NCBI RefSeq assembly: GCF_000305775.1
Contig: NC_018866.1
Span: 1,736,001-1,800,000 of the forward strand
DNA length: 64,000 bases
Source: Dehalobacter sp. DCA
GTDB taxonomy: Bacteria; Bacillota; Desulfitobacteriia; Desulfitobacteriales; Syntrophobotulaceae
Direction of reading: 5' to 3'
In this document: positions 8,175 to 43,246 of the stretch, piece after piece
How positions within the stretch are numbered: the stretch's first letter is position 1
How the letters are laid out: each line of letters starts with the position of its first letter
The notes under the pieces: generated by a model
Database searches by the model: none
What the model saw: the letters and a program-made list of their open reading frames with translations, nothing else
What the model was told of the DNA's origin: nothing
Made by a program: the position numbers and the translations under genes

Positions 8175-8464
8175 CAAAAAGCCTTCGTCTCAATTAATGA
8201 GACGAAGGCCAATTCGCGGTACCACTCATGTTAACGGCACATGCCGTTCACTCTACAGGATGCGGGAAAACAGTGAAACCATCTTCCGATATCCCCTTCC
8301 TTTTAACGGCGGAAGACTCCGTCCGGTCCTACTGCCTAAATGGTTTCAGCCGGCAACTCAAGGGGGAGTTCAGTCTTTCGTCTTGACCGCTTTTCACCAG
8401 CCTGCGGCTCTCTGCACAAATACTCCGGACTTATTATTCCCTGTCATCATCTTTTCATATATTC
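8175..8464 (-). ncRNA. T-box riboswitch leader of leuA
   Basis: On the minus strand the conserved T-box core GAGTGGTACCGCG (complement of 8215-8227) precedes a strong terminator stem. GCCTTCGTCTC (8181-8191) pairs with GAGACGAAGGC (8199-8209) and a T-run follows. Upstream, AGAGAGCC and GGTGAAAAGC resemble Stem I landmarks. A CTC triplet at 8366-8368 in GAACTCCC is a candidate leucine specifier. Uncharged tRNA-Leu would stabilise the antiterminator and allow leuA transcription. The T-box identity is firm; the specifier assignment is tentative. Confidence 0.92.
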
Positions 8465-13649: not shown

Positions 13650-14582
13650 TCAGTCCGACTCAGCCAATTGTCCAAGGTCGAAAGACGTCTGCTGGTATAC
13701 ATAGTAGTTCAGCCAATTTAAAAACAGTAAATTGGCATGTCCTCTCCAGGTGACCTGAGGCATTCTCTTCAGATCATCATTAGGAAAGTAATTATTGGGG
13801 ACCGCGATATCCAGGGCTTTATTCACATCCCGATCATACTCGGTTTTCAGCGTAAGCGCATCATACTCGGGATGGCCGGTAACAAAAAGATGTCGGCCAT
13901 GCTTCCCGGCGACCATATAGACACCAGCGTCATCCGACGTTGCCAGGACTTCCAGTTCCGGATGCTTTTCAATGTCTTCAATCCGGACTTCCGTATGGCG
14001 GGAATGCGGTGCATTGAATACTTCGTCAAATCCCCGCAGAAAATTATTGTTGTTGTTATGACTGATAATCTTATGGTTGAATATCCCAAACATTTTACTG
14101 TCAAGCGGATATTTCGGAATCCCATAATGATAGTATAATCCCGCCTGGGCTCCCCAGCAGACATGTATGGTTGAATAAACGTTGGTAAGGCTCCACTTCA
14201 TGATCTGTTTGAGTTCATCCCAGTAGTCTACATCTTCAAATTCCAGATTTTCGACCGGTGCACCGGTGATAATCAGACCATCAAATTTTTGATCTTTCAC
14301 TTCATCAAAAGAGCTGTAGAACCTGCTTAAATGCTCTTCCGAAGTATTTGCAGGCTTATGCGTCCAAGTGTAGAGCAGTGTTATCTCTATTTGCAGAGGT
14401 GAGTTGCTCATCAAGCGCAAATACTGCGTTTCGGTAACGATTTTGGTAGGCATTAAATTAAGCAGTGCTATTCTTAAAGGACGAATATCCTGGTGCTGTG
14501 CCCGGTCTTCACCCATAATAAATATATTTTCATTCTCCAGGATTTCTTTTGCCGGTAAATCGTCCGGAATTTTGATCGGCAT
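13650..14582 (-). CDS. metA: Homoserine O-acyltransferase MetA, probably acetyl-specific
   Basis: This 310-aa enzyme activates homoserine for homocysteine synthesis. It is the glutamine-amidotransferase-like MetA type with catalytic Cys142 (HVCWGAQAG) and His237/Glu239 in VTGHPEYD. Residue 111 is Glu (APVENLEFE). In MetA proteins Glu111 marks acetyl-CoA use and Gly marks succinyl-CoA use, so O-acetylhomoserine is the expected product. This fits the two O-acetylhomoserine sulfhydrylases in the window. A run of five Asn (176-180) is a local oddity. GAGGAGG precedes the ATG. Confidence 0.94.
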
Positions 14583-14716: not shown

Positions 14717-15922
14717 TTAAGACAGACGGTTTTTAAAATCCTCATAGCCGAAGCTACGGACAGTCTGAATGGTACCGTCAGCCTTGTTCAGGACAATATC
14801 CGGCAGCCGTATCCCATTGAATGTATTGTTTTTGACCATGGAGTAAATTGCCATATCACAGAAGACAAGGCGGTCTCCGGGATTTAAGGCCCGATCAAAT
14901 GAATAATCCCCGATGATATCGCCGGCCAGGCAGGTTGGCCCCCCAAGACGGTACGTAGTTTTCTTTTCTCCGGGCTGCCCTGAGCCAACTATCCGGGGAC
15001 GGTACGGAACTTCCAGTACATCCGGCATATGACAAGCAGCTGAGGCATCCAGGATAGCAATGTTCATACCGTTAAGCAGCGTATCCAGCACGGATGAGAC
15101 CAGAAAACCGGCATTCAGCGCGATCGCTTCGCCAGGTTCCAGGTACACGGTAATGCCATAGGTTTCCCGCAGACGCTTGATGGTCCGAATCAGAAGCTCC
15201 CGATCGTAATCTTCACGTGTAATGTGGTGCCCCCCACCAAGATTCAGCCATTTCATCCCAGGCAAGAACTGACTAAACGACTTCTCAAAGGCTTCAACCG
15301 TTGTCACCAGCGCATCGGCATTTTGTTCGCACAACGTATGCAGATGCAGTCCGGAAAGGCCTTTGAGCCGATCCTGCTTAAAGTTTGCCCTGGTCACACC
15401 GAGTCTGGAATAGGGTCCGCACGGATCATACATGCCATGACCTTCCTGGGTGGAACATTCCGGGTTGATCCGCAGGCCGCATTCTGCCCCTGCGGCAAGC
15501 GCCAGCTTACCAAACTTATCCCACTGAGAAAAGCTATTGAATATGATATGATCAGATACAGTCAAGATCTCATCGAATTCATCCTCCCGGTAAGCCGGGC
15601 TGAAAATATGCACTTCTTTGCCAAATTTTTCGCGGCCAAGCTTCGCCTCGTACAAACCGCTGGCTGTTGTTCCGCACAAATATTGGGCAATCAAAGGGTA
15701 TACCCCGAACATTGAAAATGCCTTCTGGGCGAGCAGAATTTTTGCTCCGCTCTGTTCCTGAACGTCTTGTAAAATTTCTAAATTTGATATTAACAGATTT
15801 TCATCAACCACATAGCTCGGAGTTGGAACACGGTCAAACCAGTTCTCCGCATTTTCTGTTTCTACAGCCTTCTGTTCAGTATTCTGTTCTCTTGCGTACA
15901 GATCCATTATTGCGTTTCCCAT
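14717..15922 (-). CDS. nspC: Carboxynorspermidine/carboxyspermidine decarboxylase
   Basis: The 401-aa PLP enzyme has the alanine-racemase/ODC fold. The PLP lysine lies in LLAQKAFSMFG (K67), the substrate and phosphate region in LGGGHHITRED, and the C-terminal active-site strand is CDMAIYSMVKNNTFNG. It decarboxylates carboxy(nor)spermidine to the triamine. The ATG overlaps the TGA of the upstream dehydrogenase by one base, indicating translational coupling. An ATG 15 bases further downstream is less likely. The pair forms the alternative, SAM-decarboxylase-independent spermidine route. Confidence 0.93.
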   Translation of the reverse strand: MGNAIMDLYAREQNTEQKAVETENAENWFDRVPTPSYVVDENLLISNLEILQDVQEQSGAKILLAQKAFSMFGVYPLIAQYLCGTTASGLYEAKLGREKFGKEVHIFSPAYREDEFDEILTVSDHIIFNSFSQWDKFGKLALAAGAECGLRINPECSTQEGHGMYDPCGPYSRLGVTRANFKQDRLKGLSGLHLHTLCEQNADALVTTVEAFEKSFSQFLPGMKWLNLGGGHHITREDYDRELLIRTIKRLRETYGITVYLEPGEAIALNAGFLVSSVLDTLLNGMNIAILDASAACHMPDVLEVPYRPRIVGSGQPGEKKTTYRLGGPTCLAGDIIGDYSFDRALNPGDRLVFCDMAIYSMVKNNTFNGIRLPDIVLNKADGTIQTVRSFGYEDFKNRLS

Positions 15923-17121
15923 CAGGGTACCAGCGCCGGATTGAAGTCTTCTTCCCAGGGCAGACCCCATTTATTGAGTGCTTCCATAAAAGGATCGGGA
16001 TCAAACTCTTCCATATTATAAACACCAGGTTTCGCCCAGGTACCATTCATAACCAACATCGCCCCGATCATCGCCGGCACGCCGGTGGTATAGCTGATGG
16101 CTTGGCTTCCTACTTCTCGATAGCACTCCTCATGATCGCAGATGTTATACAGATAGTAGGTTTTTTCCTTGCCGTCTTTAATTCCCTTGAAAATGCAGCC
16201 AATATTGGTTTTGCCCTTGGTACGCGGACCAAGGGAAGCCGGATCCGGCAGGACAGCTTTTAAGAACTGCAAAGGGATGATTTCCATTCCATTATAATTA
16301 ATAGGCTCAATGCTCGTCATACCAACGTTCTCGAGACATTTCAGATGTGTCAGGTAGCTTTGTCCGAAAGTCATAAAGAAACGGATGCGTTTGATGCCTT
16401 TAATATTCAGCGCCAGACTTTCCAATTCCTCGTGGTGCAGCAGGTACATATCCTTGACGCCGACACCCTTGAAATTGTACGCTCTTTTGATCTCCATCGG
16501 CTCAGTTTCTGCCCAGTGGCCGTTTTCCCAGTAGCTGCCTTTAGCCGTGACTTCCCGGATATTAATCTCAGGGTTGAAGTTTGTTGCAAATGGATAGCCA
16601 TGGTCGCCGCCATTACAGTCGAGAATGTCAATCTCATGAATCTCATCGAAGTGGTGCTTCAGGGCGTAGGCACTGAATACCCCGGTAACCCCCGGATCAA
16701 AACCTGAACCGAGCAAGGCGGTTATCCCTGCTTCTTTAAATTTCTCCCGATAGGCCCACTGCCATTTATATTCAAAGTGGGCAGTCTCCTCAGGCTCATA
16801 ATTGGCGGTATCTACATAACTGGTCTTTGTGGCCAGACAGGCATCCATAATATGCAGGTCCTGATACGGTAATGCCAGATTCAGCACAACATCAGGCTTT
16901 TCTTTGTTGATCAGCGCGATCAGTTCTTCCACGTTGTCAGCATCCACCTGGGCTGTTGTGATTTTTGTTTTACCTCTGCCCAGTTTTTCCGCTAAAGCAT
17001 CGCATTTTGATTTCGTACGGCTGGCAATACACAGTTCACCAAAAGCCTCTGAATTCTGGCAGATTTTGTGGATTGCCACACCGGCGACGCCGCCGCAGCC
17101 GATAACGAGTACTTTTCCCAT
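15922..17121 (-). CDS. Carboxynorspermidine/carboxyspermidine synthase (saccharopine dehydrogenase family)
   Basis: The 399-aa NAD(P)H-dependent enzyme starts with the Rossmann motif VLVIGCGGVAG. It continues with GSGFDPGVTGVFSAY and the C-terminal YTTGVPAMIGAMLV typical of the saccharopine-dehydrogenase-like family. Next to nspC it is expected to condense aspartate semialdehyde with a diamine. The open frame extends 41 codons further, but the ATG at 17121 has GGAGG 7 nt upstream and starts at the Rossmann fold. A terminator-containing leader lies directly upstream, implying attenuation control. Confidence 0.93.
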   Translation of the reverse strand: MGKVLVIGCGGVAGVAIHKICQNSEAFGELCIASRTKSKCDALAEKLGRGKTKITTAQVDADNVEELIALINKEKPDVVLNLALPYQDLHIMDACLATKTSYVDTANYEPEETAHFEYKWQWAYREKFKEAGITALLGSGFDPGVTGVFSAYALKHHFDEIHEIDILDCNGGDHGYPFATNFNPEINIREVTAKGSYWENGHWAETEPMEIKRAYNFKGVGVKDMYLLHHEELESLALNIKGIKRIRFFMTFGQSYLTHLKCLENVGMTSIEPINYNGMEIIPLQFLKAVLPDPASLGPRTKGKTNIGCIFKGIKDGKEKTYYLYNICDHEECYREVGSQAISYTTGVPAMIGAMLVMNGTWAKPGVYNMEEFDPDPFMEALNKWGLPWEEDFNPALVP

Positions 17122-17180
17122 AGTAATTCCTCCAATCGCTAAAATGATTTTTGCCCAACTCAAAAAACTTGTACCAAAAT

Positions 17181-17235
17181 AAAAAACACTTAGAAGCGGT
17201 ACTGCAAAACAGGGCAGTACACCACACCTAAGCGC
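17181..17235 (-). terminator. Leader terminator before the carboxy(nor)spermidine operon
   Basis: On the minus strand GTACTGC and GCAGTAC form a stem, extended outward by CTTAG and CTAAG. TTTTTTATTTT follows. It lies between the structured leader and the start of the first gene. Confidence 0.8.
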
Positions 17236-17600
17236 GACGATCATGAAAAACTTGTTTATTTGGCTCTATTTACGTCAAGGGCGAAGACCCTTTCCATTTA
17301 GAGTTATTTATTCAGCTTTCGAGGTTTCAGAGTCTATATAGCAAGGAATTACTTTTACTACTCTTATTGATCGTTTCACAAGTGTGATGTGCAGCGGATT
17401 TGCACACGGCTATGAATTAGCCAACTCATAACGCTTCGAGCCGCCCCGGCTCAATCAATAAGGCAACAAAGTTGCCAACTTCGGCTTTTGACCCGGCTGT
17501 CCGTATGGCCTTGGTCCTCTATAGCTTCTGCAGAGAACGGTCAAAAAATTCTTTGCTGAAAAGGCTCTACTGCCTCTTTTCGCAACTGAAATTATATCTA
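17182..17600 (-). ncRNA. Unidentified structured leader RNA with terminator, upstream of polyamine operon
   Basis: On the minus strand this roughly 400-nt gene-free stretch is rich in perfect helices. TTTTGACC pairs with GGTCAAAA around GTTCTCT/AGAGGAC. Further hairpins are GGCAAC-ttt-GTTGCC, GAGCCG-ggg-CGGCTC and TGTGCA/TGCACA. A TTATTGAT/ATCAATAA helix closes a multi-branched loop. It ends with a terminator-like hairpin (17181-17235, GTACTGC/GCAGTAC inside CTTAG/CTAAG) followed by TTTTTTATTTT, about 60 nt before the synthase ATG. It matches no riboswitch class I could recall; T-box, lysine, SAM and c-di-AMP were considered. It could also be a free-standing sRNA. Confidence 0.55.
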
Positions 17601-17728
17601 ATATTTCAAGATATTTCAATAGTTTTTATAAATTAGTAACAAGCTTCAAATTTTATATATTTTTGTTACCCCATTCGATTTTATAGCTACTTATGAATCT
17701 CGTGTACTTCTTCCATCAGGGCAAAACT

Positions 17729-18805
17729 TTAGCATTTAATAGTTTCTCGGATTGTACCTCCTCCTAAGACGCTTTCTCCGTCGTAAAATACGACCGCCTG
17801 TCCGGGAGTCACCGCACGCTGTTTTTCTCCAAAGATCACTACGGCTGTCCCATTTTCCAGAGAATTGACCACCGCGGATACTTTTGGCGCATTGTATCTG
17901 ATCTTCACCAGGATGTTTTGAATCTGTTCTGGAAACACACCGGAAATATAATGCACATTCTCAACATGCAGGCCTGAGCTGAAAAGCTCGTCCTTTGATC
18001 CGACCCTGATCGTATTGGTTTCAGCATCAATCGAAGTAACATAAACAGGAAAACCGAGCGCCAGTCCGAGTCCCTTATGCTGCCCGACTGTATAGCGGTA
18101 TATTCCCTTATGTCTGCCGAGAATCATCCCCCGAGAATCAACGATAACCCCCTGGACATTCTTCAATTGACGGTATCCTTCAATAAAATCACCTGCTGTT
18201 CCCTCGACAAAACAAATATCCTGGCTCTCTGCTTTTTTGGCGACAGCCAGTCCTTCCCCTTCAGCAATCTGCCTGACATCCGCTTTGCGATATTCACCCA
18301 GGGGAAAAAAAGTATGGGCAAGCTGATCCTGAGTCAGATGATAGAGTGCGTAACTCTGGTCTTTCGTCTCATCAATCCCTGCTTTCAGCACCCACTGCTG
18401 TGTTTTGTCATCATACTCCTTCCTGACATAGTGCCCAGTTGCAATATAATCCGCCCCCAAACCACGGGCTTTCTGCAGCAAAGAATCAAATTTCAGATGC
18501 TTGTTGCATTCGATACATGGATTAGGCGTTCTTCCTCGAAGATATTCACTGCAGAAGTTGTCAATAACCTTGTCTTCAAACTCCTTCCTGAAATTCATCA
18601 CGTAATATGGAATTTTAAGCTTCCAGGCCACTCTGCGGGCATCATTGACTGCCTCGAGGCTGCAGCACGCTTTGGCTTTGTCCTCCGACTGCGGCCAGAT
18701 CTGCATGGTGACACCGATAACCCGGTATCCTTCTCTTTTTAACAACAGAGCGGCAACTGAACTGTCGACGCCGCCGCTCATAGCAACCACTACGGTTTTT
18801 TTCAT
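17729..18805 (-). CDS. mnmA: tRNA 2-thiouridylase MnmA
   Basis: This 358-aa cytoplasmic enzyme adds sulfur at C2 of U34 in tRNA Lys, Glu and Gln, using ATP. The PP-loop SGGVDSS is at residues 10-16. The two catalytic cysteines are C97 in NPCIECN and C198 in SQDICFV, and a C-terminal beta-barrel begins near residue 280. The start at ATG 18805 has GGGAG with 7-nt spacing; an ATG two codons earlier is too close to the ribosome site. The gene is monocistronic in a sulfur-metabolism neighbourhood, and the dedicated sulfur donor is not adjacent. Confidence 0.96.
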   Translation of the reverse strand: MKKTVVVAMSGGVDSSVAALLLKREGYRVIGVTMQIWPQSEDKAKACCSLEAVNDARRVAWKLKIPYYVMNFRKEFEDKVIDNFCSEYLRGRTPNPCIECNKHLKFDSLLQKARGLGADYIATGHYVRKEYDDKTQQWVLKAGIDETKDQSYALYHLTQDQLAHTFFPLGEYRKADVRQIAEGEGLAVAKKAESQDICFVEGTAGDFIEGYRQLKNVQGVIVDSRGMILGRHKGIYRYTVGQHKGLGLALGFPVYVTSIDAETNTIRVGSKDELFSSGLHVENVHYISGVFPEQIQNILVKIRYNAPKVSAVVNSLENGTAVVIFGEKQRAVTPGQAVVFYDGESVLGGGTIRETIKC

Positions 18806-42714: not shown

Positions 42715-42944
42715 TGTTAATCCTGTTCGTGACTCCTTTCCCAACTGCTTCACAATCGGGCGTAGGAAAGTACGGACAACTAAAGGGATTCCGCAAAGAA
42801 AACCTTCTTCCTGTTTGATCCGCTCTTGTCCCGGAAATTGCTTTCCGGATTTGCAACGAATCTAACGATGACAAGCCACCGAGAGGCACCCGCCGAAAAC
42901 TTCGATTAACCTCTTCCTCGTCAACCCAAATGGGCTCTGGCGCT
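42715..42944 (-). ncRNA. glmS ribozyme
   Basis: On the minus strand the conserved core is clear. The cleavage site lies in AGCGCCAGAG (between 42944 and 42943). GTTGACGAGG and AGAGGTTAATCGA follow, then TTTTCGGCGGGTGCCTC and CGGTGGC. These match the glmS ribozyme pseudoknot, which self-cleaves when glucosamine-6-phosphate binds and marks the mRNA for decay. Helices of the P3-P4 type continue to roughly 42715; the 3' boundary is approximate. Confidence 0.93.
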
Positions 42945-43246
42945 ACATTTTTTGTGCGGAAAAATCCGCAGTGTAAACTGTATACTGTAAACCGTCAAAA
43001 TCATCCACTATTCATTTTTTTAATCCCTGACCTATTTCCCAACCATCTCCTCATAAGCAGTCAATTATCTATCAATGTAACAGACCAGCAATGCTTCCGA
43101 CTTTCCTATTATAATCCATATGAGAAAATAGGTACAGACTTATTTTCTCAAGATCATCTGAAGATTATCTGAAAGAAAACTTGGTTGGTGCCGGTCTATT
43201 ACATTTTTATTCTATTACATTTTCCGTCAAAGGGTTCTAACCCTTT

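Follow-up and report, generated by a model that had tools for sequence, protein, structure and literature searches.

A candidate riboswitch class with RF02440 as one of its domains precedes polyamine operons across Bacillota

The polyamine operon of Dehalobacter sp. DCA that lies within the 64,000-nucleotide stretch of DNA analysed here (the window; contig NC_018866.1) is preceded by a leader that is, in our judgement, probably a large OFF-type riboswitch, that is, a transcription attenuator of polyamine supply genes that would most likely sense spermidine or a close polyamine. The RNA at its centre, of about 240 nt, was reconstructed from more than 140 Bacillota loci and one Synergistaceae MAG, and it is probably a little-recognised polyamine sensor whose only database entry is a 54-base small RNA. 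Computation gives good support to its fold and pseudoknot, and to the terminator and antiterminator complementarity; that a small molecule binds, which ligand it is and that the switch is of the OFF type we infer from sequence.

At the Dehalobacter locus the RNA strand is the minus strand, as fixed by the genes, the promoter, the terminator and the homologues. A sigma-A-type promoter (TTGAAA-N17-TATAAT, 17619-17591, minus strand) matches the consensus at 11 of 12 positions, and transcription would start near 17584. The leader of about 400 nt between promoter and terminator holds no convincing gene, and the minus strand from 17600 to 17182 folds at -134.3 kcal/mol, compared with -108.2 +/- 5.3 kcal/mol for dinucleotide shuffles (z = -4.9); stability is likewise seen on the plus strand (z = -4.3), as expected of a complement. 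The roughly 400-nt structured, gene-free leader described in an earlier note on this DNA is therefore real. The terminator that the note had placed just upstream of the synthase start was likewise recovered, as a hairpin at 17236-17187 followed by a U6 tail at 17186-17181 (17181..17236 in all, minus strand; -24.0 kcal/mol, with 8 of 9 tail bases T), and 60 bases separate its end from the ATG of the carboxynorspermidine synthase gene. A separate promoter driving the operon from behind the terminator would have spoken against attenuation; one was looked for between the terminator and the synthase gene, and no promoter-like site was found.

The first gene of the operon encodes a carboxynorspermidine synthase (dehydrogenase; 15922..17121, minus strand) that matches NF043000 at 2.2e-124 and 415.8 bits, which is below that model's cut-off of 800. 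Its longest open frame begins at 17244, upstream of the terminator, but protein similarity and a ribosome binding site (GGAGG) ahead of the ATG led us to place the start at 17121. It is followed by nspC, encoding carboxynorspermidine decarboxylase (14717..15970, minus strand; TIGR01047, 6.8e-147, above the cut-off), the open reading frame of which overlaps the upstream synthase gene, so that its true start is probably internal. The upstream neighbour of the leader on the same strand is mnmA, and a gene for MetA (homoserine O-acetyltransferase, 13650-14582, minus strand) lies directly 3' of the polyamine genes, also on the same strand.

Relatives of the RNA were collected mostly through one exact 26-base pattern, taken from the part that corresponds to Rfam family RF02440, which matched at least 120 stretches in GTDB genomes; the matches listed include Bacillus, Neobacillus, Paenibacillus, Cohnella, many Clostridia and one Synergistaceae MAG. 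The resulting collection is rich in Paenibacillus and Bacillus, and since the pattern selected most of the sequences, conservation within these 26 bases is partly built in and not independent; neither the covariation nor the gene-link tests rest on it. A covariance model of 199 positions (R1), built from 29 of the collected sequences, matches the conserved core in the window (17329..17543, minus strand) with 168 bits (E 4.7e-43). Searched with R1, 24 of 398 genomes drawn from across the phylum contain the RNA, representing 18 of 266 genera, as do 20 of 78 genomes from a single family centred on genome G367.

This core comprises a P1-P3 domain, a P4 helix (17460-17454 with 17371-17365; 17365..17460, minus strand) that encloses P5, P6, P7 and P8 in a multiloop, and a P9 hairpin. 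The P1/P2 domain contains a long conserved internal loop. All six pairs of the P3 hairpin (GGCAAC-UUU-GUUGCC, 17462..17476, minus strand) change on both sides among the homologues, and P4 and P9 are each supported by covariation as well. P9 (AGAGU/ACUCU, 17329..17364, minus strand) closes a conserved loop, UAGUAAAAGU...UUGCUAUAUAG. When the covariation check proposed in the earlier note was run on an alignment of 62 distinct homologues, pairing was retained in 96.4% of cells and 38 of 52 pairs showed changes on both sides, compared with 13.7 in shuffles, none of 500 shuffles reaching this number; sliding the partner by one column reduced pairing to about 40%. Having been fitted to the model, this alignment favours the structure, but it is corroborated by a MAFFT alignment of 29 sequences, in which 16 pairs have changes on both sides (0 of 500 shuffles). 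The multi-branched structure read from the window alone is thus borne out across the homologues.

The core is further tied together by a pseudoknot that joins the strand immediately 5' of P1 (GCAAAGAAUU, 17547..17556, minus strand) to bases of the P9 loop (17350-17341, minus strand). Duplexes between the two strands average -10.4 kcal/mol when both come from the same locus, -7.0 kcal/mol when swapped between loci and -4.6 kcal/mol when shuffled (z = -7.4). The duplex reaches -6 kcal/mol or better in 122 of 123 loci, and when the 5' strand is scanned along the RNA the P9 loop gives a single peak. Upstream of the pseudoknot strand, the 5' leader hairpin (GAAAAGAGGC/GAGCCUUUUC, 17558..17581, minus strand) is conserved in the genus. 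By eye, Bacillus and Paenibacillus loci had also suggested an outer helix that would join the 5' hairpin to sequence following the aptamer; it was rejected, as it is broken in L125, a locus from the same clade as the window. Long stretches of the RNA are conserved and unpaired, in places invariant, a feature typical of ligand pockets.

The expression platform is coupled to this fold by a single strand. The switching strand AUCACACUUGUGAAACGAUCA (17368..17388, minus strand) is, according to duplex tests, either part of P6 and P4 in the aptamer fold or the 5' strand of an antiterminator, the 3' strand of which (UGAUCGUCGCGCUUAGGUGUGGUGU, 17219..17243, minus strand; duplex -30.5 kcal/mol) overlaps the 5' arm of the terminator. 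A terminator is found between RNA and gene in 128 of 131 loci, and its 5' arm complements an aptamer strand consisting of the 3' side of P8 plus P6 (GCACAUCAACUUGUGAAAC and variants). Duplexes of the aptamer strand with its cognate terminator arm average -14.4 kcal/mol, against -12.7 kcal/mol with non-cognate and -7.1 kcal/mol with shuffled arms (permutation z = -5.5). To control for shared ancestry, the test was repeated with 20-nt windows along the whole RNA: only the switching strand peaks (-14.0 kcal/mol, against about -12.5 kcal/mol for non-cognate pairs; z = -5.1), and all others have |z| < 2. Folding of the window's own transcript agrees, in that the minimum free energy structure contains the antiterminator when the RNA is cut before the 3' arm of the terminator, whereas the aptamer and the terminator form together in the full-length transcript. 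In these models the antiterminator and terminator states are mutually exclusive and both use the conserved aptamer strand directly; computationally, the leader thus has the exclusive expression platform, coupled to an aptamer, by which riboswitches are recognised. Attenuation in cis is well supported by the modelled folds, and the transcription-attenuating layout claimed earlier has gained strong support, with promoter, structured domain, exclusive antiterminator and terminator, and polyamine operon recurring across many genera and ahead of several polyamine operons that are unrelated to one another.

We propose that RNA polymerase starts near 17584 and makes the aptamer of about 240 nt, in which the P1-P3 domain, P4 around the multi-branched P5-P8, and the P9 loop, pseudoknotted to the 5' end, would come together. 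When the sensed compound is scarce, strand GCACAUCACACUUGUGAAACGAUCA could leave P8, P6 and P4 and pair with the 5' arm of the terminator; with this arm sequestered, transcription would run on into the genes for carboxynorspermidine synthase and decarboxylase. An abundance of the compound would instead stabilise the aptamer fold and keep the strand hidden, allowing the terminator to form and switching the operon off. The anatomy of the switch alone leaves its trigger unspecified, and it is conceivable that the fold is picked by a polyamine-responsive RNA-binding protein or a ribosomal event. We consider such a trans-acting factor unlikely, since a conserved, pseudoknotted RNA of more than 200 nt with long invariant unpaired stretches exceeds the needs of known protein attenuators, and since no partner gene consistently adjoins the RNA except the polyamine genes themselves.

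These genes offer a clue to what the RNA might sense. Downstream DNA could be read at 139 loci, and at all 139 the first downstream gene, as typed by tblastn, is a polyamine gene on the same strand: carboxynorspermidine synthase in 92, speD in 29, potA in 10 and an arginine/lysine decarboxylase in 8, with several operons continuing into speE, speB, the synthase or potBCD. The association is not built in, since loci were collected by RNA and not by gene. The typing queries were polyamine proteins only, so that a short unrelated intervening gene would be invisible, but the distances leave little room for one; loci from close relatives are not independent, yet four operon types in distant lineages have the RNA in common. 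It is thus a structured 5' leader conserved ahead of genes with related functions, and its link to polyamine genes is exclusive, which is well supported. We favour spermidine or a near relative as the ligand because the regulated genes span two spermidine routes as well as import, the common products of which are putrescine and spermidine. The genes for carboxynorspermidine formation, speD and the decarboxylases also have several intermediates in common, and the RNA could instead respond to a pathway metabolite other than a polyamine, such as decarboxylated SAM, methylthioadenosine, agmatine or a biosynthetic precursor. This possibility appears slightly less likely still than a trans-acting factor, given that the potABCD import operons (10 loci) and the two spermidine routes share only the end products putrescine and spermidine. 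A general caution against any specific sensor of polyamines is that these compounds stabilise many RNAs unspecifically.

Beyond the window's own leader, we lean, if only slightly, towards a dedicated and widespread polyamine riboswitch class that would be unrelated to SAM-I, would control both polyamine synthesis and import, and would consist of two separable modules, P1-P3 and the P9-pseudoknot, each losable in some lineages. The short forms before speD in L160 (1501-1707) and L163 (1501-1678) are without the P1-P3 domain that contains the RF02440 part, and retain the pseudoknot, P9 and the switching strand, with a terminator detected in L160. Two other loci, L090 (1372-1546, minus strand) and L108 (6625-6816, minus strand), keep P1-P8 and lack P9. 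The complementary losses suggest an RNA of two modules, and they also count against our reading in that they blur which part would bind a ligand. P9 is lacking or replaced, with P1-P8 kept, in L018 (5430-5605, minus strand) and L096 (3582-3757, minus strand) as well, where a terminator is not evident and control may be exerted at the level of translation. It also counts against our reading that the synthase gene occurs without the RNA in some relatives from the same family and order. Thirteen relatives of the host (G009, G013, G017, G019, G020, G023, G025, G033, G034, G036, G037, G039 and G040) carry a carboxynorspermidine synthase 70-74% identical to that of the window and gave no match to the RNA, and a full-sensitivity model scan of one relative's RNA-less synthase locus (L172) found nothing.

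The earlier note had held that the leader matched no known class, and this claim survives in part. In an Rfam scan, the P1/P2 domain with its conserved AAGGCCAUACGGACAGCCGGGUCA loop (17481..17543, minus strand) matches the covariance model of RF02440 (SpF59_sRNA, or ldcC RNA) at 65.3 bits against a curated cut-off of 37.2. A confident match to a known non-coding RNA family, which the note had named as evidence against its reading, has thus formally been found; the family, however, is only 54 nt long, is filed as a Streptococcus sRNA and comes with no described ligand or switching mechanism. RF02440 corresponds to a single domain (63 matching bases here) of the RNA of about 240 nt, and conservation extends some 170 nt past it. 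The RF02440 model also has a match in Lactococcus lactis. In seven distant members (L157 and L159-L164), with R1 scores of 29-122 bits, Rfam recognises no part of the longer RNA. A sub-threshold Rfam scan of the leader gave, apart from RF02440, chance matches only. T-box (RF00230) and glmS (RF00234) matches are absent from the leader and occur elsewhere in the window, at 8195-8456 (minus strand, 116.9 bits) and 42807-42955 (minus strand, 104.7 bits), respectively.

Annotation of RF02440 as an sRNA raises the possibility that the short transcript is itself the product, acting in trans, and that its position before polyamine genes is incidental. In S. pneumoniae, the sRNA-sized transcript of this family (F59/SN20/srn235), located between SP0915 and SP0916, was reported among pneumococcal sRNAs, and insertions in it had a strong effect on fitness in the lung (PMC3395615). 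An insertion at this locus may, however, also affect the downstream gene, and SP0916 encodes arginine decarboxylase (PMC7531197). Moreover, the RNA lies directly upstream of, and co-oriented with, a polyamine gene in all 139 loci, as part of a longer conserved RNA and not as a stand-alone small RNA gene, and its terminator arm co-evolves with the aptamer strand, which would be needless for an independent sRNA. We therefore regard a trans-acting role as very improbable. The pneumococcal transcript probably serves as an attenuated leader for the gene encoding arginine decarboxylase, and the Tn-seq lung phenotype may accordingly reflect this downstream gene. One study reported higher arginine decarboxylase expression in pneumococcal strains impaired in polyamine transport or synthesis (PMC7990898); this is consistent with polyamines repressing the gene, the behaviour expected of an OFF switch, though it is not evidence for the RNA.

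We found no description of this RNA as a riboswitch in the open-access literature, and an earlier account could exist in subscription journals or preprints. We present it as a candidate new riboswitch class containing RF02440 as one domain, one with a testable switch and present across Bacillota. If this is correct, what is listed as a pneumococcal 'sRNA' is in fact an attenuated leader in the polyamine pathway, and many polyamine operons of Bacillus, Paenibacillus, clostridia and streptococci gain a common mechanism of control.

Three known systems invite comparison. The raiA motif (ModT, RF03072), likewise a large, highly conserved and pseudoknotted Bacillota RNA, was first suspected from a look at the sequence; cmscan gave no RF03072 match in the window or in 21 genomes, with control genomes silent as well, and the present RNA differs in its gene neighbours and its cis layout. 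RF02440 of Streptococcus resembles the leader in its P1/P2 domain and AAGGCCAUACGGACAGCCGGGUCA loop (65 bits), and its S. pneumoniae copy also lies directly before a polyamine-pathway decarboxylase gene, SP0916; here, in contrast, this domain is part of a leader that adds P3-P9, the pseudoknot and an expression platform. The third system is the spermidine riboswitch of Salvail et al. (2023), a variant of SAM-I with 13 known representatives upstream of ldcC, speB, speD and speE (PMC10853860). It follows a polyamine logic with transcriptional OFF control by exchange of terminator and antiterminator, as is proposed for the RNA here. The Rfam scan of 16900-17950 gave no match to the SAM-I clan even at E up to 10, and whereas the spermidine riboswitch adopts the SAM-I fold, the RNA described here has a different architecture and is far more widespread.
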